From Glossina fuscipes (taxonomy: Eukaryota; Arthropoda; Insecta; Diptera; Glossinidae): a stretch of DNA of 64,000 nucleotides. The DNA lies in assembly GCF_014805625.2 (NCBI RefSeq), contig NW_023998415.1:21313630-21377629 (forward strand). Direction: 5' to 3'. Made by a program: the position numbers and the translations under genes. A model generated the notes under the pieces. That model did no database searches. It worked only from the letters and a program-made list of their open reading frames with translations, and was not told the origin of the DNA. Positions 16,249-62,657 of the stretch are shown in pieces (position 1 is the first letter of the stretch; the number at the start of each line of letters is the position of its first letter).

Positions 16249-19200
16249 TTAAGATAGATCGTCAATCATTGTGGTGTTGGCATCTGGCGGTGGCATGACC
16301 GTTGTGCTATTGGTGCCAGCAGCAGGAGGGTCTAAGTAAATTTTGAGTGCCCGTTCACGCCGAGGAGAAAATCTAGATGTGGATATACATCCCAGACGAT
16401 CAAGACGGGATTTTTCTTTAGCACTCCATTCTCTACGTTCTTCGTTTGTTAGTTCCTTGGCAGTTGTTGTTACATCCCTAAAATTAGTAGAAAAGGTCCT
16501 CTTAAATTTGTATTTTTTCTGCAAAGCTTACCGCGTGTTAACCTACTTGTAAAAGTACATATTTCCGGTGACCGTGCTAATTAATGGATACTTGTCGACC
16601 GTGGCGGGCATTGAGATCCAGCTCATAGCATTATTTATACTCAAAAGGGAAACATTAGTATTCGGGAAGTAGCCATTTACCTAAGTATAATAAAGATTTT
16701 ATATCGCAATGGAAGCGATAAATATGTCTCTACTTACCTTGGTATAGGCAATATTTTCTTCTGGTATGCCAGACAATTTTGATAAAGCATTCTGTATTTC
16801 GCTGTGCTCTGCAAGAAATGACGTATAAAGATTTGATAAAATTTGTACTACGGTACTAGGAAAATTACTCACTTTCCAAAGCAATCTCTTGGAATCGCCC
16901 CAATTCCAATGTATCGGGATACCAACGACGCACAAATATGACTAAACCATCCTCCCCAATGTTTGGTGAAACTCCGTCTTCACATTCTTGTATAATGAAC
17001 TTAAGCAAAAGAAAACTTATTTTTCATATATATATATATAAAAAAATCAAACAATATTGTTATTGCTACCTCCATTGAAGCTGATGAAAGCACATCGCTG
17101 CCCATAGTTTCATTATCGGCGTATATTCTAATAGGGCTGCGACCACCCTTAAGCCATAACCGACAATTGTCTAATGTGAGCGTTTTATATTTAACGCCGT
17201 CAATGCGTTGCAGTTTGGCTATTAATGCTTTCTTAGCTACTATGACTGGCGTAGCGTCCGTATAAATCCATTCGCAGATAAAGGCGACTCGTGCCGTATC
17301 GTTGTTAAATTCCGACAAGCGCATAAAATAAATTTTTGCTCGATGCTCCTCTGGCAAAAGCTCTTTGCCCAACTCTACGCTCAATACTTCACCCTCGCTA
17401 AAGTAAACCAGCGACTGAGACATGCTGAGGAGTTTCTTGTCATGTTTATGATGAATTTGAAAATATTTTTGCGGGACGTTGATAAGGCGCTCTATATGTC
17501 TCTTAAGAACACTTAATTTCATGTGGGAATCAACAAGGATTTTATATGAACGCATTGGTTTACGAGCAACATCTTCGCCCGAGTCCAGGTCACTATATGG
17601 ATTATGGTGTCTATTGGAGAGAAGAGTGGCTGTGTCCATAACGTCAAGTTTGATCGCGTGAAAGAATTGTGTCGCCTGTGGATCAACGACTGGTTCGCTT
17701 TGGCTTAATTCATAGCAGGCACTGTAGAAGGCATTGACGCGGTTGATAGAATCCTGGCGATTCTCATCTTCGGGACTTGATAATTGAGGCGAATGACTAG
17801 TGCTAGAAATTTGGCTGTCGCCACCTCCCCGATTTTGTAAGTTTTCAACTAGAGTACGATCGCCATCGCTTAAACTACTATCCTCAGAATTGGATTCATG
17901 CCCAACAGCGAACTTTAAGGCCGGCGTGGTAAGGATATTGCCACCAAGGTTATCAAGATTATGTGAAAAGTTAGCGGGTTGTGCTGAGTCTCCGGATGCA
18001 CGTGAGTCGTAGATTTCGGTACAAGCACTGGATCCATCAGGCACCGCATCTCCAGCTGGGGTTAGCTGATCTTGCCTTGCTGATATACCGTCATACGGTA
18101 TATCAATTATCTCTAAGTTCGTCGCATCCGTACTGGGTACATTCAAAAATAAATATGTGATATCCTTGAACCGTGAACGAGCTAATTTCTGTAGATGTTG
18201 TTGTGTTTCAGTATTAGGTAACAGATCGCAGGCAGCAAAAGCCTTCTTATGACGTTGAGTAGTTGCCACAAGTAGATGTTCTTCACTTACATTCAAACGC
18301 GTGGCTATTGAGCGCTTCAATATGGGATTGTTTTCTAAGGCTTGGGAATATACGAAAAATGGTCCGTCCATTTCCATTGTAGATAGATTGACCATGAAAA
18401 CATACCACGTTGCACCATCCGGCTCATAAATTTCAAACTCTTGGCCATCAGCTCTATATTCCAACAAAAATTCTATAGGGTCATCACCAGCATTTCGAAT
18501 TTCATTAAACAAAGTGTTAGTGGTGTTTTCAAACGATCGTATTATGCGCTCAGCTGCGGGATCATAAGCGACAAGGCGGCAGTGTGTTAATGGCGCAAAT
18601 TGCTCTACACTCAGCATTTGATATGCGGACTCTAAGACACTATTAAGATCGAACTTTTGCGTAATATATACTCTAGTCATTTTTAGTTTCCTTAGTTCGG
18701 GATTGTAAAAGTAAACACGTGGCTTAATATGCTCCGGTAACGCTAAATCCGAAATGGGACGATGACGAGCGTTGCTGCTAGAAGCGCTCCCGCCACCACT
18801 TCGTGTTATTCGCAATTCTTCTTCGTGTCCAAGTTTCTCAGCGAGCGTTTTAATGTGTGCTGGAAAATCGTCAACCCTTAAAACCTTTTCATTACGCTTT
18901 GGATCGATTTGCCGGTACATCAACATGTAAGCATTTGTACTTGAACTATAAACGCTGGAATAATAACCTTTGCTGGAGCCACCGCCGAACGATTTCTGTA
19001 TATCATCTTGTGTTATCTGTTGTAGCATAGGTAAAATATAAAATGAAAATTAAGCAATTGAGTACTGTTTGGACACATACCGGTGTGACTGACTGATCAT
19101 TAAAACAATACCATTCACTGTTCTCAAACTCTTTAATGTAAGCATAGTAGTGACCTCCGGACGCACTACCCGAATGAATCATAATCGCAAATAATTCGTA

Positions 19201-21375
19201 TGCGTATTGATTAGATCCATTTTTGGCATGCTGACTACTGTTAATGCGATTGCGATGATCCGTGCTTGAACTCATATCGATGCCCTCGTCCTGGTCCTCG
19301 TCGTTCATGTCGATTACGTTGTAAATAGAGTTAGTCGTAGTTATGCCACTGCTCCAATTATCTTCCTCCATAGCAGAGCCGCTGTCCGTTGTGCTACAAT
19401 CATCCGTTGTAGCTGATGATCCATTCGGAATGCTACCGTTCGTTTGAGCCGATTCATTCCCCCCAGACGTTATAAAGGTGCTTAAATTTAGCACTTGTGG
19501 AAAAGTAACTCTACGAACAAACAATACGCAAAACATACTGTAATTGCATGCCATATATATATATATATATATATACTTACTTGTCGTTCAGTTTGAGGCG
19601 ATGCATTGTTTGATAATCGAAATCGAATCTTTTCAAATGTAAAGTCAATATATATGGGAAATTTTTAAATTTTAATCCTTTATGAGCATCACATTTTTTG
19701 TTACATTTCTCACAGAAGTATTGATTATTGCCATCTAATGTCTCTGGCTGTACAAAGGCTCGTAAAGCTTCTTCAATGCTGCCATAAGCAGCTGTGCTCC
19801 CAAAAGGTCGTACTGGCAAAGGTATATCAAGGAAGGTATCGGCTCGTGTTTTCTCCGTATTGCAGTCGAAGCACTTTACATAGTCAATCATTTTACCTTC
19901 GTAAAGATTGGCTATAAGATTAACCTGTTTGGTATTTTTAAATTTATGCTCGAGAGCATCGAACATAACCCGGCACAGTTCCTGAATGTCGTGTTGCTGC
20001 CATGCTTCCGATGAATTCCAACCGAAGCTCCGAGTTAAATCAGTAGTTTCGACAGCTGACTTTTTCGATGTCTGAAAATTAGTGTTAAGGAAATGTTCGT
20101 CACAGAAATTAAATTCGGTGGCGGTCAATAAATCACATTATCAAAATTAAACAACTTAGTTCAGTTATTCACGTTAGGAAGCTCAATATATTCACCTGCA
20201 AATTGAGAAAGAGTTTCTGCAATTGATAGGGAATATTTTTGGCCTCGTGATCGTTGTCGAATTCCCAGCGATAGAGCGCGTTCCGAAATTCCGGCGTCAT
20301 AAACAGAGCTTGCAGAAGACTATTAAGGTAACATGTCATTGCCTGATTGACCAGACCTACGTAACCATTGTTGCTTGATATTCCAGCAGCGGCAGGGGAA
20401 AGTGAAGGCAACGAAGATAAACGATATTTTTTTTCAGCCTCAATTAGGGTATCTGATAAGTCGCGATAAACTCCATATTGACTCAAATTGAAGTTCGGCG
20501 ACGATGTGTGCGCGAGAGAGAGAGGCGCGCCACATTGCATGGGTTCGGTCTCTGGGGGACTGGCTGATGCGCCCAATGCTAAGTCATCATCCGACAACGG
20601 ATCCGGTTCAGACATGGGACTAAGGTTTAATGAATCTGTATTTGTGGCATTCGTTACGGTAGTCATTGACGATGGTGGCGAAACATTTGCATCGTTCGTT
20701 GGAATATGCATCCCTCTTGAATTCAGAACAGGCATATCTTCATCTGAATGATTTATGGAGCCATTAGCGCCATTAGTCACGCCACTACTTGCAATATTAT
20801 TTACATTGTTATTATCAATATTGCTGCTACTACTGGTACTGGTACTGATATCGACACCGTTGTTATTTATACTGATATTGTGGTCATTAAACATAATAAG
20901 GCTTTTTGGTGCTGCGCTTCCATTGGGCAGAGCATGAGCAGAATTACCCATAGCTATATCATAACGGAACTTTACGTTTCCGTCCCATTTGCCGGCGGGA
21001 AATAAAATAAAGTAATTCTTTTCTTTCTGCTCAAAGCCCGGCACATTATACAATAGTTCCGGTTGATGATCATTCAAGTAAACCTTTTGCGCAAGCATTA
21101 ATCATTAATTGATAAATAAATAGAGTAAAGTAAGTAGAGGCGAAGCACAAAAACATAACCTACCAAGTCAGTGCCGGAATTTGGTTGTAAAATCAAATCA
21201 AATTTGTCGTAACGATATTGGGTCTTTATATCGGCAATTACTTTTCCCACTGTATAGGGGGGTCGTACCACAATATTAATTTTCCTTTGCTCAGAGTCGG
21301 GCGTCTTGTCATGCACAACGCATTGTATTGAATTCTCGTGATCAAGTTGAACCATAGCGTTACCGTCCGGATAAT
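16249..21375 (-). CDS. Usp47: USP47/Ubp64E-type ubiquitin-specific protease, 9 coding exons (5' end unresolved)
   Basis: Cysteine deubiquitinase of the USP47 family; human USP47 acts on DNA polymerase beta and on signalling and repair targets. Exons, 5' to 3': 21375-21164, 21083-20196, 20071-19581, 19510-19081, 19016-17070, 16999-16873, 16808-16738, 16680-16547 and 16477-16249. All are in phase and give about 1,502 aa from the Met at 21,353-21,355. The first exon opens in phase 1, so a further upstream exon probably exists. Cys box: [19 protein letters not shown], with Cys about 315 (codon 20,331-20,333). His box: [13 protein letters not shown], His about 644, followed by WYCFND. Zinc-ribbon cysteines CFDC and CEKC are present. 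Next come ubiquitin-like repeats and the conserved C terminus [16 protein letters not shown] Ser/Asn-rich low-complexity stretch of about 200 residues precedes the protease, longer than in human. Introns are mostly 70-130 bp. Confidence 0.93.
19511..19580 (-). other. 70-bp Usp47 intron made largely of (TA)n
   Basis: The intron between the third and fourth coding exons begins GTAAGTA, runs straight into about 12 TA repeats, and ends TTCGTAG. Repeat length change would alter a near-minimal fly intron. Confidence 0.7.
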
Positions 21376-30809: not shown

Positions 30810-31565
30810 AGGAAATTAATCAAATTATCAAATAAAAGTGTTGTGGGCATTACGTGATTTTTGCTTAAATGCACTTATATATGAATACATACATACACAC
30901 GATTATCAAAAAGTAGTTTTTTGCTTTCGTTATTTGAAGTATGAATGTATGTATGTTTGTTTTATTTAGTAACGAGAGAATCGCCGCATATATTGCAAAT
31001 GTGAGGAAACGAGACAAATCTTGGATTTGAACAAATCAAGCAGCTCACTGGGCATAATTGCTTTTTACATCTCGAATATTCTGGGAAGTTTTGATATGAA
31101 AAAAAATAGGTAAACGTTGACTATGTACTTTTTGAGAAATGCATTTCTTTATCCATTTGCAATACCTTATGACTACTGGTAAATGCCATAGGTTTATCGT
31201 TTTATTCTGGGTATAATCCTTGTAGGTCTTTTATGGACTTAGGAATCAATTAAACTATGGTGGATTTTCCGTTTTTACATAAAGTGATTTGTGTTTGTCC
31301 AAGTGTCCAAGTTTATTAAAGAGATATTATCTATATTTTTTATAAAAATCATAGACATCTTCACGTCTTTATGAGCATCTTAAGTCATATTGGGCAGGTT
31401 TCACATTCCTCCACCCATAGCTTTCTGTTTTTGCTTAGCATTAAGAATATGAAAAAACTTATCCTAAACTGAACAAAAGAAAAGAACAAACTTTCTCTTA
31501 CGTATTAACGCAAATTTTTTTTAATTTTGTTTTTACAGTGGTTTAGTGGTTAGTAAAATAATAAG

Positions 31566-32579
31566 ATGAGTAAAAATTTTTATGAGACTCTTGGCATAAA
31601 ACAAACTGCCAACGATGATGAGATCAAGAAGGCGTATCGCAAATTGGCGTTAAAATATCATCCGGATAAGAATCAAAGCCCACAAGCTGAGGAACGTTTT
31701 AAGCTGATTGCTGAGGCTTATGAGGTGTTGTCAGATAAAAAGAAACGCGATATTTATGACCAATATGGCGAAGAGGGTCTTAAAGCCGGAATTTCGGGAT
31801 CAACAGGCGAACCAGGTAGCAATTATACATATCACGGTGACGCGCGTGCCACCTTTGCGCAGTTTTTCGGAAATTCCAATCCTTTTGGCGCATTCTTTGG
31901 TATGGATGACCCTATGTTCGGACAGCAGACTATTTTCATGAGTGATGATGACCTCTATACCGGCATGAGTGGTGGTCCTGGCGGCGCGTTTCGTTCACAT
32001 TCGTTTAATGCTCCACCAAATCGCAAACGACAGCAACAAGATCCTCCTATTGAACACGACCTCTATGTCTCTCTCGAAGAGGTTGATAAAGGCTGCGTAA
32101 AAAAAATGAAGATCTCACGAATGTCAATGGCAACAGGTCAATCCCGTAAGGAGGAGAAGGTTTTGAATATAACAGTAAAACCGGGTTGGAAATCAGGTAC
32201 TAAAATTACTTTCCAAAGAGAAGGTGACCAAACTCCCGGAAAAATACCCGCTGATATAATATTCATCATTAGGGATAAGCCGCACTCATTGTTTAAGCGT
32301 GAAGGCACTGACATTAGATACAATGCAAAGATCAATCTTAAGCAGGCATTGTGCGGAACAAGTGTTCATGTGCCGACATTGCAGGGCGACAGAATTCCAG
32401 TGAATACACAGGGTGAAGTAATAAAACCCAACACAGTCAAGCGTATAAGTAATCGAGGATTGCCTTTCCCCAAAGAGCCTTCCCGACGTGGTGACCTGCT
32501 TGTCTCATTTGACATCAAATTTCCCGAAACGCTACAACCGCCAGTTAAGGAATTACTTAACGAAATACTCCCGAATTAA
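31566..32579 (+). CDS. DnaJ-1: DnaJ-1, Hsp40 class B co-chaperone (DNAJB1/B4 type)
   Basis: Co-chaperone that delivers clients to Hsp70 and stimulates its ATPase in cytosol and nucleus. Single coding exon, 337 aa (human DNAJB1 340). The J domain is about residues 4-68, with the essential HPD at 32-34 (YHPDKN) and helix [13 protein letters not shown] Gly/Phe-rich linker of about 70-150 includes [18 protein letters not shown]-terminal beta-barrel domains I and II start near [12 protein letters not shown], with [36 protein letters not shown] and the ending [13 protein letters not shown]. There is no zinc-finger CxxCxGxG region, confirming class B. The ATG is the first after the 5'UTR acceptor. 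Regulation by HSF is suggested by the promoter. Candidate poly(A) signals are at 33,088-33,093 and 33,124-33,129. Confidence 0.96.
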
Positions 32580-44793: not shown

Positions 44794-44803
44794 NNNNNNN
44801 NNN

Positions 44804-48172: not shown

Positions 48173-49397
48173 GCCTTCTCAGCAAGGACCCATCCATATG
48201 TATTGTAAAGGAATGTGTGCTCTTTATTTTATTTTAATATTTCCTAATAAAACATAGTGCTCTGTTGTCTGATTAAATCTTCTTTATTTTTGGTTGGGTA
48301 TTAAATTTTGATTTAATTACGATTTCGTTTTTAGTTTTCTTATGTTTCTCTCTCGTATATATTGGTTTTGTTTATCATTTTGCTTTTATTATTTGTATTA
48401 ATTTATTTATTTATTTATTTATTTATTTTTTTTTTGCACTTTAAGAGGTATTGAAGTGAATTGTTGCGATTTTGGTTTCGCGTTTGAGTAAGTTTTCCTT
48501 AAGCTTTGACTTCGAAGTCAAAATCCATTTTCGTCCTCTTACTTTCCACTGATCATGTTCTTCAATAAATAGAATTATTTGCGCTTCATTTATTTATTAG
48601 TTTTTTCTTTGATTGATGTTTGTCCTTTAAAATGTAATTGTTGTTGTTATTTTTGATGTTCTTGTTGTTCTTGTTGTTCTTGTTGTTATTGTTGTTGTTT
48701 TTATTGTTATTGTTTTTATTGTTATTGCGATGTTATTTATTTCGTTTAGGGAAATTATGTTTATAAATTGCTAACACTCTTTCAATCTTATGACGCTTAA
48801 GGTTAGTATGTCTGGTTTGTTAGTTTTGCTTGTGTATTGCATATCAACGTACGTTGATATAATAACTAATTCAGCTACATTTCTATTTCCATGTATGTTG
48901 AAGGTATGTACATATCTTAGGAACAAGAGTGCATTGTGTAATGTCTTATGTCTGAGTCGTTAAAATTTGTTTTTCTTTTAAACATCAATTCTCGTTAATG
49001 AATTTCATTTAAATCCTATTTCTTTAATCTAGAGGTATACGTACGTATATATATATATACGCTTATTGTGTATATGTGTACGTACTAATCTTTCTATTTT
49101 ATTTATTTATTTATTTATTTATTTTTTTTTTAGTAAGTAAGTGTTGGTATTATTGTTTTTGTTTTGCGTACAACCTTATGAAATAATAAAGGAGATGATC
49201 ACCGATTACATTCAGATGATTGATGGTTTGACCCGTTTCCAAATGCCGCTAAACGTAATGAGGGATTAGCCATAGTGACATCAAGTAGACTGTTAGCTGC
49301 AATGGTGCCCATAATTCTTTTAGAAAAGCTTCCACTTCGGCTATACTACGATAAATAATTTTAATCGATGTTAGTAGTAAGCTATGTGGCGGCAGTT
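44851..49397. other. T-rich, microsatellite-dense 3' flank of sif
   Basis: Contains (ATT)n at 45,420-45,450, (GGT)n at 46,064-46,092, (TTG)n at 46,271-46,295, (TTTTG)n at 47,465-47,520, (ATTT)n at 48,400-48,428 and a perfect 20-bp palindrome at 48,841-48,860. No coding region is recognised. On the minus strand this sequence is A/CAAAA-rich and could be long 3'UTR or intron of sif. Confidence 0.4.
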
Positions 49398-49601
49398 TTA
49401 AACATGTATTTCATAGTAATCATTACAATCGATGCATCCACCGCTTCCTGCCGTTTCGTTTACATGTCTAGTTGTGGAGGTTTGTTGATGTTGCGTGTCG
49501 TATAGACTGGTTTCGTATGGTTCTCCGTATGCATTGACTGCGACAGCGCCACGTGGTATCTTTTTCCGCGTACGGCTTTGTCGTACGCGGCTCTTATGCT
49601 A
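49398..49601 (-). promoter_or_regulatory. sif: Candidate stop-codon readthrough module of sif (leaky UAG, stem-loop, 66-codon extension)
   Basis: The long sif ORF ends TCC-TAG-CAT (TAG at 49,599-49,601 on the minus strand). After an 8-nt spacer (49,591-49,598) comes a perfect stem, CCGCGTACG pairing with CGTACGCGG (49,582-49,590 with 49,566-49,574), closing a 7-nt loop. The same frame then continues for 66 sense codons to TAA at 49,398-49,400. The extension is basic at first (HKSRVRQSRTRKKIPRG), then Tyr/Thr/Gln-rich, and ends CIDCNDYYEIHV. The 8-nt spacing and structure match known viral and insect readthrough sites. Function is inferred. Confidence 0.55.
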
Positions 49602-49737
49602 GGATGGTTTCTTCTGATATAAACAATCGATGCATGTTGTATGTTCTGGCGCCGAAGAGCTCATTTGGTAGGGACGGTCGTGGGGACATTGCGATTCATG
49701 CTGCAATAATCGGCCAGTATTATAATAGCAGTGCTCG

Positions 49738-49770
<33 letters not shown>

Positions 49771-52700
49771 GCAGAGTTGCCCATCTCCTGTCTATATTGA
49801 GCGAACGTATTTTCGGCGGATTGTGAACGTATCGGACCTGCGCTTAGATCCATTGTATTAATTCCATAAACGCGCTCTGGAGAAATTCCGTAACGATAGT
49901 GAGACGAGCTTGCATGGCTATCCCGTGAAAGTGATCGTTCTAAAGATTTGGTACTACTATGTCTTGCTGCTTCTGGTCGTCCACTCTCACGGCCATCACG
50001 TCGCGTCACAGTAACTGGAACAAAATGATCGCTACAAGTACGATTATCATAAATTGGATAATATTTATAATAGGTTTCAGTCTGCTCCTCATAATCAAAA
50101 CTGCCATGGGCCGATAGGCTGCGTTTGCGTCCAACGTCTGAGCCGCGTTCAAGAGGACGTAAATCGAAGCTGCCCCGAGGCGATTTGAGCGCTGGTCGTG
50201 GTATGTCGAGATTTGGCTCCGAGCTGCGGCTGTCAAAACTACTTCTCGGTGAATGACGAAGGCACAAACTGAGACCACCTGTTCCACTTCCATTGATGCC
50301 CGTTCCACTGAATCTCTCAGGGGACAAATACTCTACGCTATTATGAGGTGATATATGTGGAGATAATGATTCAATGCTGCAATCATGTGTGAGTGTAGGC
50401 TTTTTCAAACAACTACGATCGGGACTTTTTGATTTTGATGGGCTTGATGGTAACTTTAATATACTGGCTGACGGACTCGATGAACGTTTGAGTATCCCAC
50501 CGCCACCCTCAGACGCTCTGCGAGAGCTTTGTGTCCGGTGACCATTAAATAAACGATCTTGTGAAGAGTCTCGACTGGAATTAACACTTAAACGCTTGCC
50601 TTGTTCACTTAAGCTAGTGCGCGGAGATTTTATCTTAATTATGCGTACTGGTGAACTACCCTGAGATTTAGACCGATCTGGTGAAATGTATATGCTCTGA
50701 CGTGGAGATTTAACCAATTTTGATTTATCACTTATCCTTCCTAAATTGCCTCCCTTGCCATTTAAATTAGTCTTCGATGGCTTTTGTAGTTTTTCCGTTG
50801 ATTTAGATTTGAAAACTTTGTCTACTTTCTTATCGATTATTACATGGTAAGAAGAAGTGGAAGCTCCATCTTCTGATTCGTCCTCTGATTTTTCCGAAGT
50901 GCCTGTGGTTGTACCGGATTCTGATTCCGTCGCTATAGCACGCGGCGGCGATTCGATATCAGCAACCACTGTCTGCTGGGTATTCTCTACGACGGTCTGA
51001 GGTTCGGGTGAAAGACTTGAATCATTTTGTTGCTGGTCTTGAGGGTCCATTTGTAAGTCATTTGATTCTAATGTCTTTTCTTTCAGATTAGCCATGTATG
51101 CCTCAATGTCGCAAGTGGTATCTGTTAGATTATCCTGCGCGAGCTCACTTAAATGTTTATCCATATACCTTGTGCCGCTATCACCGTTTTGTTGCTCACT
51201 CGGAAAACTGTGACGCCCAGAAGCTCTTTTGGTTGATTCTTTTGACGCAACATGCACAGCTGGAGCCTGTTCAGCTGTGCTTTTGCTTTTAGATTCTTTA
51301 TAGAACATTTCAATAACTTCTATATCTTTTTTGGGTGATTGTCTAGGTGAAAACCTGTTATTCACATGCATGCTATTATCGGATACAACAGACACAGTGT
51401 CACTGTCGTAGTCATGCCGAGAAGAGCTAGCGCTAACAGTTGTAAATAAGCTACCACTACCACCTAAACTTAAATTAAAAGCAGCCGCCAATGTAGCTGC
51501 CTTTAAGTCCGACTCTAACGTTAGTTCATCGGGGTCGTGGGCAGACTCTGCAGTAACGGATTCGATTTCTGAGCATGCACTATCTTCTTGGGGAGGAGGA
51601 GATTGTATTGTATCTTTTGAAATTGAGCTACTCTTACCTAAATCTTTCATAAGAATGGGTTGATAAGTTGATGGCGGGTGTGACGACTGTATGAGTCGCG
51701 CCTGACTTCCTGTACTGCCAACGGATAATGTTGAAGTTGTGCTGCGGAAATGATGAAAATTCAGTTTTTCAGAATCTGTTTTTATACTTACGATTGATAC
51801 AATACCTTAAAGTAAGATGATTGGGTGTACGACCAAGCGAGGGTTTCGTTTTAATGGTGCCGTGTTGAAATTCTTCCTCACCTTCGGATTTTGTGCCCGG
51901 GTCCATACGTTCGGTATCACTCTGTTGTTGGTGTTGGATGTTGTCTGACGAAAAGTAACAGGAAAAAAAAAAGAAAAGAAAGACTCGAGTAACATAATCC
52001 TCTCATTATCTATATTACTTATGCATTTACCGGATGCATCACCCAGTGCTTTACTACGCAATTGAAATTGAACTGGATGTAATTGCCCCAGCTGGTGTTC
52101 GTGAGCATGAATTGAAGTAGAGGGCACATCGTCGGCTTCCTGGCTACCTGAGATGTTGTCGTAGTCGATATTCCCAGCCGAATGGCGTTGAGATCCAGAC
52201 TTCTTTTTGGGTTTACCCAAGGTCTGTGAGCCTTGCATAATGGTTATCTATTGAGCAGGTGTTGTGTCATAAAATTTGCATGAGTTATTATAAAGTAATG
52301 TGAAAAGAAGTACGAACCTGCTGCTTTGGACGCTCCAAAGTTTGGGAGTTACATACACCTTGGGATGTTAGACTTGATATTGAAGTGGAACCCCCGAAGT
52401 TTTTCATAGGAATGGACATGTTACGTACGCTTTCGCGTATAATTTGCCGTATAGTCTTTAGGAATGCATTACGAAAGTCGGCAGTACTATTCGACAGCAC
52501 ATATACCTTCTCAGAGCGCCGTTGTAATTGTGAACGCAGGTGTATCAATTCCCACAAAAAATGCGAGTCCATATCTTTTGCTGAGGATGCTCGCACCTGA
52601 ACTTCCGTTACTGGTATTAATACCTGATAACGTATTATCTCGACTTCATTTGGAGCATTTTTGCTTGACACTCCCTAAGATTAATCAAATTATGAGTTTA

Positions 52701-55700
52701 CGTATGCAATTTATGTAAAGTTAAAGGGAAAATAATAATAGAGAGTGCGTAAGAAAGAAAGCCTTACCATAAGCTTTTTCTTTTGCCGTAAACGCTCTTT
52801 ACATAGAAACACAACCGCTGATTTGAAGACGAAACACATTGCATGTAGCTCTAGACCTTTCTTAATTTTACCCAAAAAATCGGAAATATTCAACCATTCG
52901 ACACCGCCATAATACAAGAGGTCACCTATACAGTAACAATAAATTCTAGATCAGATTAAAAAATATTTCGATCATAGTTATGAAGATAGATGATCTTACC
53001 GGGACTCAAGTCAATTGGCTGCTTGCACGATTTTTGATGTTGCCGGAATAAATGATCGAAAATAGCACCATACTCCTCATGAATCCTTTGCATTTCATTA
53101 ATATGCTCAGCAACTTTTTCCATACCCTTTAAGGCCTCTGCAATTGCAACAATTGAAGCAGGTTCTACATTTACAGTTTAATTTTCAATGAGCACTTACC
53201 GCATAAATGTAAATGTTCGTCAGCTCGTGAGTCAGTTAAATTACGTAACTGTTGCAATAACAACGGATACTTAAGTATGCGCTGTATTGGCTTTATTAGA
53301 TACGATTCCAAAGTACAACTATGTTGCTGCTTGGGATTACGAGCGGCTAGGAACTCTTGCAATGCATGATTTCCTTCATCTGAAATGATCGTGTTATCAA
53401 GATCAGTAACGTTAATCTTAGTTCGATTCAATCTAATTTCATAAGACTAATTACAACAACAATATTAGATAACAATTCACATGCCACCGTCTATAAAATC
53501 TCATTCTTTGTGTTCTTATATTAAAAATGAGCAAATTAATAATAAACATAAAACGCAATTCTTCAACGATAACTTGATAATTAATTAACTCAATACACCC
53601 AGAATGCCCTTAACACTACCCAAAGTCTCTCGAGTAACTCGATTAACAAATTTATCAGAACCAACTTACATCATTCGTTTTTAGCAAAAAAAAAATACTT
53701 CCCATAACATTCTTCTTAATACTTCAATAACTTGAGCACGAAATACGATTTGTGCGGCTTTGAATTGTGGCAGTTAGTTATGCGCGATCTGTTTGTTTGC
53801 GCAACAACCGGGCATGTACGGAGGACATGCAATCGAAGGGAAGAATATGTATATGAATCAATTATTATGATTTCATATTGATATGTACGTAGAATGATCG
53901 AGTTTATAATTGAAATATAATATAAAAAATGAATAAAATAATAAACATTTGTGTGTTTGTGTGTGTGTATGTGTGTGAACACAGAGAATGAGTGAATAAG
54001 ATTTTCGTCACAATATTCGATTATTGGGGATTTTATATAGGAATATGTTTGTATGTACTTACTTGGATGCAGAACCTTTTGTGCTTTACTATGACTGGCA
54101 CAAAACGACGAATAGAGTTTAAAATGATTTACATAGTATAGGAAAGCAGATCCGATTGCAAATAGGACATTCTGAAATACACATTACATCATATCAATTT
54201 AATGGCAAACTTTTCTGCTCTAATTTCACCGATCTTAAATACCCATCGCTTTATAATCGACATTTACTTTAAACTTGACATAATATAAAATATATATACC
54301 TATTGGATTACTTAGGTCCGCTTAGGTCCGAACGTAGCTGACAATGTGCTCACATAATACTAGATTCTTAGACATTGAATAATAAAATGTCTATTTTTCT
54401 CTTATAGAATTTCCAAACCCACTATTGCACAATCATGCAAGCTTAATTACATCGTCTGATGTTTGCACGACCTCAAGTCTCTTTGGTTCGTTAAACTGAT
54501 ACGATTTGTTTTGTGATTACAGTAAACGAATCAAGATGAAGTGGTAACTTTAATCCATTCGATTAAATATGAAGACAACTATTATTTTATGCGTAAAGGA
54601 TGGTTTATGATGCGAAATGGCGCAGAAAGCCAACAAAACTTTGTTAAGGTAATCGCAGAAAATTCACATTTCGCGTAAGAACGATTGCGCGTGCAGCTCT
54701 TTATTTTAACATAGGAAGATTACTCTTGAAACATATATACCGAAGTTGCTTGTTGTTTGCGATAATGAGAAGTTCTAGTTTTATCTTATTATTATTATTA
54801 TCATTATTAATAATTTATTTAAAGTAATTAATTTAAAGACTAAAGTCTTAAAACATTTGCTTCTAAGGGTATCGGATTTATTGAAAGCATAATGCATAAT
54901 GTGACATATATATATATATGAATATATATGTATATATGTATATATTTTGGGAAAAGTGATTCGATGATGAAACTCAATTATTTTGCTTGATAGTGTGCTC
55001 CTAATTTAAAAACTAATTTTATTTAAATACTAATAAACTCTGCAAACATCTGCGACATTATGTCTAACCAGCTAAAGCTTTTCAATCAAAATACATTAGA
55101 TATTGATGTAAATAAAACAATGTTCAATATAAATTCTAAAGAAATTATTAAAAGATGATACGAATTATTCTGCGTATCAAGCATCAATTCACAACAAACG
55201 AATTAAGATAAATTGCACGCTCGCTTGTGTAGCAAAGCTATTTACAGTCATGTTTGTTAAATTAAATTAATATAAATAATGAAATACGTTTAATTCACAA
55301 GATCGATGCTTTTTAAAAGAGAGTCACTATGTAATCTATATTCTACGATAACGTATCAAAATTAAATTTAATTCACTATAGTCAACACAAAGTTTTTAAA
55401 AGTATAAGCGACATTGTCCAATACTGAATAACGAACGTTTGCCAATATCTTGGCAACGACGTAACCGCAACCGTAACCGCTTGGCGATGGGTGTGAAAGT
55501 GATGCGCAATTATCTGAATTGATTGATATGTTTGGATTCGTACTTACACGGAATTGACTAGAGTGTTCGAATTTATGAAAATCTGGTTCAAGGTCTAGAG
55601 CTTCTTCAAGATTTTGTAGAAATTGTCTTTGGAATGTCACGATTTCATGAATATTGCCAAATAAAGCGTTAATTTCAGCACTAGAGAGAAACGTTTCACG

Positions 55701-56006
55701 TTTCAGAGGCTCCAGGTAGTTCTCCAGTAGGTTATTTAAATGCTGTAAACGAGTCGAATGGTTAAGATTGAAGAGCAACGAATGGCGTATAATTTTCGCC
55801 GTCTTTTTACCTTGACGTAGGTTTTTTCAGTATCAACCAGTTCTAAAATGACCTTGCGCAGCTTTTCGGCATCTGTGAGTTGGCGTGAGGGCGTAAGGGC
55901 CGCATTCGAAACTGACGATGTAACCGAACCAGTTGGACTCGCCTTACGGGTTTCCTGAGGTGAACGACAAAATCCAGTAACCTTGAGAGGCGAGGCGATG
56001 GTATAG

Positions 56007-56039
<33 letters not shown>

Positions 56040-56497
56040 ATGATCGTGGTTGTGGTTATGATTATAATAGTAGTAGTAGTAATAGTAGCAGTAGTAGCAG
56101 TAGTAGTAGTAGTAGTAGTAGCAGTAGTAGTAGTAGTAGCAGTAGTAGTAGTTGTAGTTGTAGTTGTAATTGTAGTTGTAGTAATAGTGATGATTGTGTA
56201 TACGCATTAAATGTCACGTGTGTGATTTTAGGCCCAATAAAAAAATGAAGGACGCGGGAGTATGAAGAGAGAATAAAATGAATTTAAAACGTTTAAAGAG
56301 TGCGTCGAGAAAGAAATGAGGATTGTACGAGTTGGGTGCTTGACTGCATGAATGTGCGTATTTATGGGCTTGTGTGTAATAAATATATTAGTTAAAGTTT
56401 ATATATAGTTCGTGTCTTCCTTCTAGCGGATTTCTTCAATGCAAGCATTTGAATAATTAATTCATGAGTGCTTTAAAGAAAGTAGGTACTGCACATT

Positions 56498-56570
<73 letters not shown>

Positions 56571-58071
56571 CGCATACCTCTCTATACAAATAACGACGAT
56601 ATACGTTTATGCACATAAATACGCCTACGCCTAGGCCATTGTTGTTTTGATATATTTGGTGCATTAAAAACATTTGACAGTGATAGTTGACACAATGGCA
56701 ACCACAAAATGTTTGTGGTTGGTGTGTAAAATATATGCACATACGGAGACGCACAAATAAACATTTGTACGCATATATACAATGTCTGCTGGGTTTTTGA
56801 TATTATTGCATACAGTCAGTCGTTTATAACTTGAGGGAACTGAGATCTATCATATCTAACTACGGTTATCTATGTGTGTGTTTGTGTGTGTGTGTGTGTG
56901 ATATGTGTTATGGATGTTAGTGTGTTTGTACGCTTTTGTATGTTGTTGCATGTGAATGCGGCTATATGTTGCTTGCAATATGCTAAATGTGGCTTAGTTG
57001 GTTGTGTATTATTATTATTGTTGTATGTGTTACGATTGTCTTGTTTTTTAAGAATATCCTTGATTTACATAAGCAGCTTTTGCCTTGATGAAGTGACGCT
57101 ACATACTCTCATATTTCTTACATATTTTCTGCTCTTCGTATTTCCCTTTCCTTCCCTCTCTCTCTCTCTCTTTCACTCTCTATCATTCATTTTGCTGCGA
57201 TATACGTACGTCTGTCCGCCTTAGTTTTGAATCAACAATAGAACAATCCAGATTTTACTAAACTTAAATTTGCGCCTTACTGGCTGCGTACGAGTGAATA
57301 TGTGCCAGTGTGTGTGCTAAAACTATTGGCAGTGTCTTCAATTTAAAAGGATTCCCGCAAAAGTTTACATGAAGCATAGGGAACAATTTTCTTTTTCCAT
57401 TCATATATAAATGTTTTGGGTACGCAGGCATATCTGTTCGTTCATACATATTTTTTACACATATTTTCATAAATTTTTTATTACATATTCTATAATATGC
57501 GCTATACAAAAAAATTCAGATATGTAAACGTATTACGTCAACGTCGAAAATTAAATTTTTAAGTTATATCTTTCATAAAATGTGCATGCCACACCCATTC
57601 CATGTGCACAATTAAAATTTTTAATTGCTTTAATTTCAAAATAAAAAATGTTATTAAAGAAGACGAATTTGACTTTGTCGATAGTCTGCAAGTGTGTTGG
57701 AAAAATTTAAAAATAAAACCAAATTTCCTTCATGCTGCCCGCATACGTACGTAGAGAGACTATTGTTGTGAAATTTTCGGACAATTTAGAATAAGATTGT
57801 TTTCAACTAAAAAACATTTTGGACATACTCCCTGTACATATATATCCAAAGTTCACTTTAAAGTGAATGCAACTGTTATTGCTGCTGTTTATTTTGTAAT
57901 TTGTTGCCTTCCTCTGCGATATGCATATATTGTCTGAGTGAGTAATTTGGCGGGTGCTGGTGGTGGATTGAAGGTTCATATGTGCTCTTATGTGAAATGT
58001 TTGGAAGCGTTTATATATCTATCTATTTAGGTGTATATGATTGCGTGCGTGCGTGTGTCTGCATGTGTTTG

Positions 58072-58127
<56 letters not shown>

Positions 58128-58178
58128 CGCGTTTTAAATGGAGGTGAATATGTGCGGTCACGTGTGTATGCGTGCGTT

Positions 58179-58215
<37 letters not shown>

Positions 58216-61200
58216 TTGTGTGATGTGATGGTACCAAGAGTTTGTGCATCAAGTATCATTAAATAAAGTGGGTTTCTGCCTTCAGCGATAAGTGCTCTTG
58301 GCAAAAGTTCCAAGCCAAAAGTGCATTTCGTAAGTTTTTATCCTTCATTACTGTTATGCATTTTAGTTTTTGTGCTCCTTTGTTTAAGGAACACTAGAAA
58401 GCAATGTTCGTTCGCATAGGTCACAACAATAGTTTTTTTTTTTTTTTTTAAGTTTTAAGACATGTAAACTCACAACGCAAACTTTTGCGAGCATCCACTA
58501 AACACTGTTTATTTTTTATACATCTTAAGGTTTATTTTTTATTCTTCGTATTTTTTTTTTTTTTTTGTTTTTTTGTTTTCTTTTTTCTTTTTTCTATTTT
58601 TTTGTTTTTTTTGTTTTTCTTTTTTACAGACAGTAAAATTGTATACAGTATCGTATAATGTATTGTGTGTGGTTCGGACAGGTAGATGGTTGAGGATGTT
58701 AGCTGGTTGAACGGCGAAGGTAAGTGTACAACCAAGTTAAACATGCATAGGTTGAGAATTATGGTCAAGTGCCGGCTTTTCTATTAAGAGTTAGGGGTGC
58801 AAACTGACTGTGACGGGAAGGTTCTGATTCGGTACGTGGCACAAAGAACTCAAATGAATGAATGAGAAGCTAAGAATGCATAAATAATAAAGTTAGTTGG
58901 GCTGAATCGTAAAATATATGCATAGGACACACTCTGAAATGGGTCATAGTGCGTACAATGAATATGAGAAAATTTTGTTTTCATTTTTTTTCGTTGCTTC
59001 TCAATTTTTTTTTTTTTTTACATTTTTGTTCCTTCTTCTTAGTCAGTTGAAGGATGTGGTATTTTTGTAGTGTGTTGGATGATGGTGCTTTTTTTTTACT
59101 TGTAGTATTGTTTAATGTCTGCGTTTACCTGTGCAATTGTTTCGCTTACCTGCTCGGCAGTTTTGAGTAAATTTTCAATTTCAAAACTGCTAGTTCTAGA
59201 GGTTGGCTTGGTAACCGCTGCAACACCCATTTGAGACGAAATTGGTTCGACAAATGATGGAGCGGGGGAGCTTTCTGCTTCCGGCGAGTACAAGTCTTTA
59301 CCGGTGCCATCTTGAAATTCAAAATTTAAAAAACAAAAACAAGCATAACTGTATTAACTGCGTTAACTGCATTCGTTTTATAATAGTTAAACTACAATTT
59401 GACTAAACTATGATTAACATCTATATGTATGAATTATATTGAATAGGCCGACGTTGTTCATTGAATAAAACACATATTTTACTGAAAAAGGAATAAAAAA
59501 AAAAAAAAATGTATAATCGTAGAAAGAGGTATTTATTGCGATCCGTCCAAATGTGTAACGTAAAGCTAATATTTTCAAGAGAGCGTTGAATATTTTCAAA
59601 GTTTATGCAAGAACGTTGAAAGCAATTTTGAATAAAGTGCAATTAGTTGCGGTGATCTGTTGATCTAGAGTGGGTAATTGCTATGAAAATTTCTATATAG
59701 AAAATTAACACCTTCATGTCTTGTGAAAACGAATGATTTATTTTGAAGAAGCATTTTGAACTCACCAACATGTTGAGTTTAATTGCTGTAGTTATTGCTG
59801 CTAGTGTACCTTATTAAATACTTTTGCTCCTGTTTATACTCATTAAAGTGCAATTACTTGCGTTCACTGTTATATTAAACATGGATGTACAATAGCTGCC
59901 TTAAGGCTGCCTTCTTAGTCAGCACGTAAGCAATGTTTTCTACATTTAAGTCGTACCTCAGCGTTATGGTTCGCTTTAGGCGGACAAGAATACATACTGA
60001 TTATCAATATCCTCCGTTATAAGCCGATTTTAGTACTTTAATATATTCCCGGTTGACCATATATTGTTGATGCAGACTTTTTTTTTTTGCTTCAATTTTA
60101 AGCAATATTTTAATAGAATACAACAGCGTTTATTCGAAGAAAGTAAAGTTTATTTAAAGCATTCTCCATCGTTGCTAACCACTCTTTGCATTCCTCCTGC
60201 ACATATCAAAGTCTCGACTGCGCTTATTGAACTAAATCTTACGAAAACCTTTAGGTAAGTACCCAGTCATCGATTGAAGCAAGTCTTGATTAGCAGGAGT
60301 AATGTTAACGCACTTCGGCTCGGAACTTTCAATGTCTTTTTGTTGAGTTTTTTAATAGCAGATCGAGCGTGGCCATACTGAGTAATTAGTGTCACGTGGC
60401 CTTTGGTGATTGGCTTAATAGCATTAATGATTTTCGGTACTAATGAGGTTTTCTAATGATGTTTTCGTTTAACTCGTGCCCAGCTCATATTGCAATGCAC
60501 TTAGCAGATTACCTCTAACGGGGCCGTCGTCAATATTCGGGCTTGTCGTCTATGTTATAACGCAAGCATTTCTCATTCCACTGCATAAATTAGTAGCATT
60601 TTGTCTGCAAATTAGACAGGAAAAAGGAACGCTTCCCACTAACAGCGATTTTTAAAATGTCTATGTTTTATATATTGAGTGCACTTTGTCAGAGTGTTGT
60701 AAAGACTAAGGACGATACTTTAACATTAATTTTATAGAATACAGTGTTACCTGTACGCTCTCTTGAAAATAAAAGCTTAACAAGATATTATACTAACTAT
60801 CAAACGGCGTGAAGAGTTTAGCGTATTGTTTAAATGCAAATAAGAATATAAAGGGATAGTAAGATTAAGAGCACTTACTCCAGCCTGGTGCGGGTACGAT
60901 AAGGCCCGAAATCATTTCTTCGCTCATAACGGGGGGGTCCGTTGGTGGGGGTGGACAAACTAATGAATCGATCATATCGTCGGTAACGCGCATTATTCCT
61001 GCTAGATCTGGTGGTTCGGTACGCGATGAACTGACCGAGAGAAAATATTTTGAATTAAAGTCGTCATCCACATAATTAAATTAAACTTTACTGAAGAGAA
61101 TATTTTAATACTCACCGCATCATCATGCTTAGAGATTGTTCTTCTTGCAGTACACTCTCCAAGTACATCATATCAAGGTCTGAGACAATGGCTCCATTGA

Positions 61201-61230
61201 TGACCATTATTTCATCTCCTTTGATAATCC
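49599..61230 (-). CDS. sif: still life (sif), TIAM-family Rac guanine-nucleotide exchange factor, 3' half (13 exons)
   Basis: Rac-specific GEF that, in flies, acts at synaptic terminals on actin. Partial: the 5' exons lie beyond the right edge. Exons: 61230-61116, 61030-60879, 59310-59150, 55954-55811, 55742-55548, 54171-54063, 53379-53200, 53137-53000, 52925-52768, 52674-52318, 52247-52031, 51944-51806 and 51741-49599. All are in phase; 1,401 complete codons in the window before the stop. Domains in order: second half of the PDZ ([14 protein letters not shown]), a Pro-rich linker with [11 protein letters not shown] domain ([37 protein letters not shown], the CR3 helix [19 protein letters not shown]), PH domain ([34 protein letters not shown]), then a 750-residue Ser/Pro-rich disordered tail with SPR repeats and about 11 Ala encoded by GCT/GCC. 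An alternative short ending is at 41,252-41,331. Exon 55,954-55,811 follows a long trinucleotide array. Confidence 0.93.
54787..54889 (-). repeat. 5'-truncated tRNA-derived SINE (tail only) in a sif intron
   Basis: On the minus strand it reads TTTCAATAAATCCGA, then TTTTAAGACTTTAGTCTTTAA and a (TAA/TAATGA)n tail, matching the 3' half of the SINE at 28,088-28,259. The tRNA head is missing, as expected from incomplete target-primed reverse transcription. It lies in the sif intron between 54,172 and 55,547, in the same orientation as sif. Confidence 0.6.
56008..56188. repeat. (TTG)n then (TAG)n trinucleotide array in a sif intron
   Basis: About 30 bp of TTG followed by about 120 bp of TAG/TAT/CAG-type triplets. 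On the transcribed minus strand it becomes (CTA)n then (CAA)n, ending about 50 nt before the acceptor of the exon that opens the DH domain. Open frames through it are artefacts. Confidence 0.9.
56501..56568. repeat. (TA)n(CA)n compound microsatellite
   Basis: About 28 bp of TA followed by about 40 bp of CA, inside the 3.2-kb sif intron. Confidence 0.9.
58070..58211. repeat. (TA)n(TG)n microsatellites
   Basis: TA then TG at 58,070-58,127 and TG at 58,177-58,211, separated by degenerate GTG/GCG sequence; inside a sif intron. A long T-rich stretch follows at 58,548-58,622. Confidence 0.85.
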
Positions 61231-61299
61231 CTGCAAGAGACGATAATAGAATGAACAGGAAAACTTTAGCATTGCAGAGTACATCTTTCACACACACAC

Positions 61300-61342
<43 letters not shown>

Positions 61343-62657
61343 TATACGGTCTATAAAAATTTCAAATGTTTAAAAAAACGTTAGTTTCGAAATTCGTCCT
61401 CCCTTCGTTTCTGTTGCTCTTTGGTTATTGCTTGCTATGGACAAGCTGAAAAGCGTATGCATTGAACAGACATTTGAGAAAAAACAAAACTAGACTTGAT
61501 TATCAAGCTGCTGGATAATTAACAAAAATGGGTAAGCAAATGGATATGAAAAAATTGAGTATAAAGCGAATACAAGATATCTTTGCTAGTATGGTATACG
61601 TGTAGCTTAGTTTTTTGACTCGCATGATGATTGCGTTTCACAAAATGTAAAATATTTGGTTTAACGTACACTACTACTATATATACAGTTTTAGAAGAGC
61701 AAAGCGTAGTTAATGTTACCTTTAATTGGATAATACTATGTTATAGGATACTAATGTTAGAGGATTATCTTTACTGGCTCGCGTCAGAGTAAGATGAAGG
61801 ATACATAAAATAGTCTTTATATCCTAGATGACTTATGACGCAGGGGTATACTAGGTTTGTGCAGATATATACAAAACCCAAAAGAACTTGAGATAAGTCC
61901 ACCTATTATTGTACCGAAAATGATTCTGAATCGAACTAAGTTTGTCTGTCTCACCGTTCTGATGTCTGTCTACCTAATTATTGTTTTGTTTTGCGTTCAT
62001 TTTACGGAGATATTTTGATGAAATCTTGTCCGGATCGGATCGTATATTTGACCACTTTTCCTATATGACATCTTATTTTAAAAAGTCATTACATGTGAAT
62101 TAAGCGAATTAAGCAAAGCGATATAGGGTATTCAATTGTGCACGGTTGCCGACTATAATGTTTTCACTTGCTTCTATTCTTTAAAAATTTAAAATCATCG
62201 TTAAAATTTATTAGAAGCATAGGCGGAAGAGCGTGCAACACATACACAAGCATATTGTGTTTCAAAAAGATGTCAACTATTGTCCTTTTTCTAGCGAAAA
62301 TTATTTCTATATTCTTTTAAATGCATATGGGCGCATAGTTTATTCATATTGAATATATACACAAATACATTTTTCTTGGGTGTACCTTTTAAAATGCTTA
62401 CAAACAAGTGCATAAACATACACATAAAGGAACACCCTAAATTTGGCTAGTGTTTGTATTTTATTGTTGTGGAGCAAGTGTGCATTGTTTGACAATATAT
62501 AGATATACGTTGTGTGCGTTTTTCTTTTTTATCTCTATATGCTCGACAAGTACGTCTATTGTTATATGATTCTTTTATAGCTTAGTTAATAGAAAACGAA
62601 ACAACATAACAAAAGGTAAAAAAAAAAAAACAAAACTATCAAAGCAAAGAAAAGAAA

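Follow-up and report, generated by a model that had tools for sequence, protein, structure and literature searches.

Conserved stop-codon readthrough genes number several hundred in insects, and the end of the dipteran gene still life (sif) raises the question whether translation of this gene, too, can run past its stop. Behind the UAG that closes the long sif tail the same reading frame stays open, and a GC-rich hairpin stands a few nucleotides downstream. A preliminary description of this DNA had read the arrangement as a site of programmed readthrough that yields a minor, C-terminally extended isoform. We examined the stop, its RNA surroundings, the frame behind it and the related proteins in a window of 64 kb (the whole stretch of DNA that was analysed; all positions refer to it). 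Judged by sequence comparison, sif very probably ends in a conserved and functional readthrough site. The coordinates of all features are collected in Table 1.

The host gene is the dipteran sif, a Tiam1-type Rac GEF gene, and lies on the minus strand. Pfam searches with the sif exons returned RhoGEF (1e-44) and PH_Tiam1 (2.9e-66), that is, the RhoGEF (DH) domain together with the Tiam1-type PH domain by which sif/Tiam1 Rac GEFs are recognized, and the Tiam1 DH-PH structure 1foe matched the upstream exons with an E-value of 1.6e-113. The last coding exon is made up of a split first codon followed by 713 full codons; the limits given for the upstream exons are bounds of open reading frames rather than of exons, with the junctions judged by eye. 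The queried tail of the protein is most similar to the Lucilia cuprina 'protein still life' (63% identity over 63%, same last residue). Only part of the putative PDZ domain of Sif, expected before the DH domain, falls inside the window. In the Lucilia relative the Pfam match to PDZ (E 0.0015) is under the curated cut-off, and the same stretch matched five PDB chains, with harmonin as the best (E 2.4e-5) and the PDZ domain of Tiam1 not among the five. Elsewhere the window carries exons of a ubiquitin carboxyl-terminal hydrolase with a USP47 C-terminal domain (17001-21101, minus strand), an open frame of 340 codons with a DnaJ J domain and C-terminal domain (31557-32579, plus strand) and, within a long CA/TG dinucleotide repeat, 10 N bases at 44794-44803 that are likely an assembly gap.

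Table 1. Features of the sif 3' end and of the proposed readthrough extension, with positions in the 64-kb window
Feature	Position	Strand	Evidence or remark
Upstream sif exons, including DH and second PH domains	51769..61369	-	ORFs
Last coding exon of sif	49602..51741	-	ORF; acceptor cag/CACAAC at 51741; long tail
13-nt repeat ATGCATCGATTGT	49623..49635 before the UAG (encodes CIDC); 49437-49425 in the extension	-	only two copies in the window
UAG stop, proposed readthrough site	49599..49601	-	sequence; 4/4 homologous proteins end here
8-nt spacer CATAAGAG, purines 6/8	49591..49598	-	sequence
Hairpin of 9 perfect pairs, arms CCGCGTACG (49590-49582) and CGTACGCGG (49574-49566), 7-nt loop ACAAAGC (49581-49575)	49566..49590	-	folding, sequence
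66-codon readthrough extension HKSRVRQSRTRKKIPRG...GGCIDCNDYYEIHV	49401..49598	-	open frame; homologues P0005, P0006
Conserved block 1 RQSRTRKKIPRG, residues 6-17, polybasic	49548..49583	-	identical in 3/3 sequences
Conserved block 2 C[IV]DC[NH]DYYEIHV, new C terminus	49401..49436	-	10/12 columns identical in 3/3
TAA closing the extension	49398..49400	-	sequence

Most of the outline drawn in the preliminary description was borne out by the letters around the stop. The sif tail does end in UAG with C as the next base, which is the leaky context of conserved readthrough genes; the 8-nt spacer does lead to a perfect 9-bp hairpin, the arms being exact complements; and all codons from the UAG to the TAA are sense codons. 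None of these 66 codons is an ATG in the window, and the arrangement is thus that of readthrough genes, an in-frame open frame after the stop without a start codon of its own. Openness of the frame was compared with dinucleotide shuffles, 2000 for each stretch: 66 codons remained open in 41 of them for the 400 nt 3' of the stop, in 73 for the extension itself and in 15 for 800 nt, and because of these counts openness alone is only mildly unusual. Codon usage is best in frame 0 among all six frames of the extension, but the signal is modest: the window has 242 open stretches of 60 codons or more, counting real exons, and 33 of them score above the extension while one ties with it. The description of the surroundings as AT-rich held only in part. 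The G+C content is 22% from 201 to 400 nt past the TAA, 40% in the 200 nt directly behind it, 44% in the sif exon and 46% in the extension.

The hairpin stands out from chance more than the openness of the frame or the codon usage do, with statistics that flatter it because the site was picked for its hairpin after the fact. In total 101 perfect stems of at least 9 bp (loops of 3-12 nt) were identified in the 64 kb and only two have a GC fraction of at least 0.6, namely the stem behind the sif stop, with 0.78 the highest of all 101, and one other with 0.67. Its third pair has a pairing probability of 1.0 in four folding windows. The 42 nt from the UAG onwards fold with -16.4 kcal/mol (z -4.99), which was equalled by 0 of 200 shuffles; over a folding window of 101 nt the signal is weaker (z -1.65, 9 of 200 shuffles equal). 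With the peptide held fixed, 5000 synonymous re-samplings and 5000 codon permutations were folded: 29 and 40 of them, respectively, folded as well as the real sequence, and 58 and 43 had a stem of at least 9 bp. By this measure the hairpin exceeds, at about the 1% level, the structure that coding for the peptide would bring with it. Two more pairings were predicted in the vicinity on the minus strand. A GC-rich helix of 6 bp (49647-49652 with 49546-49551) would enclose both the UAG and the hairpin, and a second pairing (49632-49635 with 49596-49599) takes in the G of the UAG.

The 66-residue extension was searched against 5.77 billion proteins, with candidates limited in length to 0.55-1.75 times the query. 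Two candidates shared words with it and both are homologous: P0005 (65 aa, E 3.0e-4) and P0006 (50 aa, E 1.9e-2). The comparison with both starts after residues 1-5 of the extension, and in all three sequences similarity is concentrated in the two blocks at its ends. The first block shares its letters in part with the hairpin: it takes in the last part of the 5' arm, then the loop, then the 3' arm. The second runs exactly to the terminal stop in all three sequences, with GCVDCHDYYEIHV as the C-terminal end of P0005 and P0006 and GCIDCNDYYEIHV as that of the extension in the window. The linkers between the blocks comprise 37, 40 and 25 residues in the three sequences and are unalignable, in frame and free of stops; the linker of P0005 has a Gln-rich run. 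A frame that is kept across a variable linker is not expected of non-coding conservation. On the evidence of these alignments, two protein-conserved blocks on either side of such a linker are a coding signature, and the tail behind the stop would be under selection as protein. Conservation after the stop was thus found at both ends in both candidates, these being two relatives and proteins only.

With the main-frame end of sif as the query, four of 734 candidates were relatives at E-values up to 10. They come from Lucilia, Musca, Drosophila and Condylostylus; two are named still life, one 'dentin sialophosphoprotein-like' and one is hypothetical. When compared by eye, all four dipteran Sif proteins end at the position of the UAG, which marks the stop as old; this conservation is one of position in proteins and not of the codon, and the four relatives are not known to be the source genomes of P0005 and P0006. 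Both of these were predicted as separate open reading frames with an M start one codon before RQSRTRKK, at the position of Val-5 in the window, and the M is presumably the reading that an ORF caller gave to an alternative start codon there. That they were called as separate frames suggests a stop between them and the main frame in those genomes as well, and we infer that P0005 and P0006 sit behind sif in their own genomes. Functional readthrough is typically recognized by just this combination, an old stop followed by a coding tail that is conserved. The earlier proposal of a C-terminally extended Sif that arises beyond a real stop is thereby upheld at the level of proteins, with both ends of the extension conserved in two sequences and the end residue of the main frame shared by four of four relatives.

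Other searches with the extension returned nothing of this kind. Among long proteins (804-2558 aa) six candidates were compared and none carried the extension at E-values up to 10, although most annotation would in any case end a protein at the UAG. DNA of relatives was also looked for among viral and bacterial/archaeal contigs, in which fly sequence would be contamination; of the 2, 16, 79 and 40 pattern matches none was confirmed as a relative. Nothing credible was found for the extension in the PDB (best E 0.14 and 1.8) or in Pfam (E 0.064, below the cut-off).

Both conserved ends of the extension suggest candidate functions. Lys and Arg make up eight of the first 17 residues, and such a polybasic start may suit a nuclear or membrane-binding signal. 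The extension ends in E-I-H-V in the window and in both relatives. C termini that resemble class-II PDZ ligands are frequent by chance, at an estimate of roughly several per cent of all C termini, and this end gains weight because it is kept in three of three sequences. The motif fits the class-II ligand X-hydrophobic-X-hydrophobic as defined in the available part of PMC7138185. Peptides of this type are ligands of the Tiam1 PDZ domain, which belongs to class II (PMC5623046, excerpt). The DYYEIHV end of Sif probably binds a class-II PDZ domain, as far as its sequence tells. For polybasic tails there is a precedent in fly ribosome profiling, where functional nuclear localization signals were found in some readthrough tails (PMC3840789, in the sections available). 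The 13-nt repeat listed in Table 1 links the two C termini: when the extension was shuffled 2000 times, a 13-mer in common with the preceding 200 nt arose only twice. At the protein level C-x-D-C precedes the stop in three of the four relatives, with C-x-E-C in Condylostylus, and it recurs in the extension of the two other sequences.

These features can be combined into a translational switch, by which a small pool of the neuronal Rac GEF would be fitted with a polybasic patch and with a ligand for class-II PDZ domains. We put this forward as a tentative idea that we ourselves hold to be rather doubtful. If it is true, and if the PDZ domain of Sif is of class II like that of Tiam1, the tail could dock on Sif's own PDZ domain or on that of a partner, and in doing so relocate or gate the activation of Rac at synapses or membranes. 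Through the repeat of C-x-D-C the two isoforms would have parallel C termini, each with partners of its own.

The conservation of a coding tail behind the stop would likewise be accounted for if alternative splicing bypassed the UAG, with an acceptor at the stop or right behind it spliced to a donor farther upstream, so that the extension became an alternative last exon. From the UAG to the conserved block there are three AG positions (the TAG itself, CATAAG and CATAAGAG). The consensus of a splice donor is MAG/GTRAGT; the last exon has 107 GTs, of which three are level with 7 of 9 matches. Two of these (51365 and 51168) match at least one of the acceptors in phase, and by our own reading the donor of the previous exon so matches the last acceptor, whereas the third, TAG/GTAAGA at 51637, matches none of the three in phase. 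These scores are simple consensus matches and do not come from a trained splice model. The 20 nt before the candidate acceptors contain only 40-45% pyrimidines, compared to 70% at the real acceptor of the last intron, and all four homologous proteins end at the stop. A splice bypass is therefore possible on paper, with poor acceptors, and we regard it as weak and improbable. The donor-like site at 51637 (minus strand) could in its own right serve another sif isoform.

Editing of UAG to UGG by A-to-I conversion, the alternative named in the preliminary description, would place a Trp at the stop and let the extension be translated from edited mRNA. ADAR enzymes prefer U before and G after the edited A, and UAG fits this preference. 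The stem, which was supposed to help, leaves out the U and A of the UAG, and in a 404-nt fold these two bases are unpaired (probability of pairing 0.03 and 0.02) with only the G paired (0.97). When the 41 nt around the UAG were paired with 3 kb on each side, the best duplex reached -24.7 kcal/mol, a value equalled or surpassed by 27 of 40 control sites from this exon, which leaves editing very unlikely. Chance would offer another account, an unselected open frame and a fortuitous hairpin in a 3' UTR, since comparable frames occur in about 1-4% of shuffles and the codon-usage scores are modest; against it stand both ends of the extension, identical with two diverged sequences through a variable linker that keeps the frame, and we find this account scarcely credible. 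Finally, the conserved peptide could belong to a separate gene or exon that adjoins sif here, for example a small protein with a non-AUG start, as the prediction of P0005 and P0006 as stand-alone frames with an M start might be taken to mean. The extension of the window has no in-frame ATG, by which an independent ATG start is excluded in this fly, and it lies in the frame of sif without a further stop from the UAG to the conserved block; this, too, is highly improbable. A reading of the stop as selenocysteine was set aside, the codon being UAG and a relevant Rfam match being absent (four weak matches over 48500-52500, none at the gathering score and none relevant).

Under readthrough of the sif stop, ribosomes would mostly terminate at the UAG and give ordinary Sif, while a minority would insert an amino acid at UAG-C by means of a near-cognate tRNA. 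By analogy with known cases the 3' C and the hairpin would favour decoding of the UAG, and the hairpin, 8 nt downstream, would meet the mRNA entrance of the ribosome while the UAG occupies the A site. Readthrough would add 66 residues, composed of the polybasic block, a fast-evolving linker and the C-terminal block ending in DYYEIHV. The extended isoform is expected at a low rate; the readthrough event, this low rate, the stimulation by the hairpin and the PDZ and polybasic functions are what we infer from the features above. No report of sif readthrough was found in the main texts of the literature searched. To our knowledge sif is a new readthrough gene, and it may already be present on published Drosophila lists. 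What began as a guess from sequence has in this way become a conserved isoform of a Rac exchange factor that can be put to the test, each end of its extension having a candidate function.

In comparison with its own family, sif shares the DH-PH_Tiam1 architecture common to the Tiam1/still life Rac GEFs, from which it differs in that the frame of the window extends past the annotated C terminus, the four retrieved homologues being without the extension. With the conserved readthrough genes of insects it has in common the old stop position, the 3' C, the in-frame coding tail, the conserved blocks and the low-complexity linker, and also a long host gene with nervous-system biology. The testable defining features of these genes are all present at sif, conservation of the stop being established for its position only. 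Unlike most of them sif uses UAG, UGA being the commoner stop. The accessible sections of PMC5100048 state that a 3' C is favoured in insect readthrough genes and that RNA structure is predicted in 10% of the D. melanogaster candidates. There TAG is commoner among the structured candidates, a tendency that is not significant in Anopheles (P 0.18), and the sif site fits this subclass of TAG with RNA structure. Many longer readthrough extensions have conserved regions separated by low-complexity stretches of variable length, according to the part of PMC4528330 at hand.

The closest cellular parallels are Drosophila dfr/vvl and headcase, in which a stable stem-loop lies directly 3' of the stop as it does in sif, and in dfr the stop is also UAG (PMC13170385, here and below in excerpt). 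The stem-loop just 3' of the dfr UAG promotes readthrough and its deletion lowers it, with the stability of the stem being important and its sequence not; predicted stem-loops elsewhere raised readthrough in six of six tested cases (PMC13170385). The folding energies over 42 and 101 nt given above place sif with dfr in having a stable stem-loop near the 3' side of the stop. The two differ in size, with a perfect 9-bp stem in a hairpin of 25 nt in sif and a stem-loop of about 50 nt in dfr, and the sif hairpin is under the search threshold of 35 nt applied in PMC13170385. They also differ in spacing: the stem starts at +12 in sif (8-nt spacer) and at about +9/+10 in dfr (5-6 nt), where displacements of 3, 6 and 9 nt each brought readthrough down (PMC13170385). 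The wider spacing of sif speaks against a strong effect, unless a shorter, stiffer stem has another optimum.

The spacing of sif is that of Moloney murine leukaemia virus gag-pol, in which UAG is followed by a purine-rich spacer of 8 nt and then by structure (PMC8310308, in the portion available). The retroviral parallel drawn in the preliminary description stood for the UAG and the 8-nt spacer and not for the pseudoknot: within the next 100 nt there is no complement to the sif loop longer than 3 nt, and 453 of 500 shuffles do as well. In contrast to the virus, sif is a cellular gene in which no pseudoknot was detected, and its compact combination of a UAG, 8 nt and a 9-bp hairpin is suited for testing whether, and in what way, a simple stem free of pseudoknots stimulates readthrough in a cellular gene.
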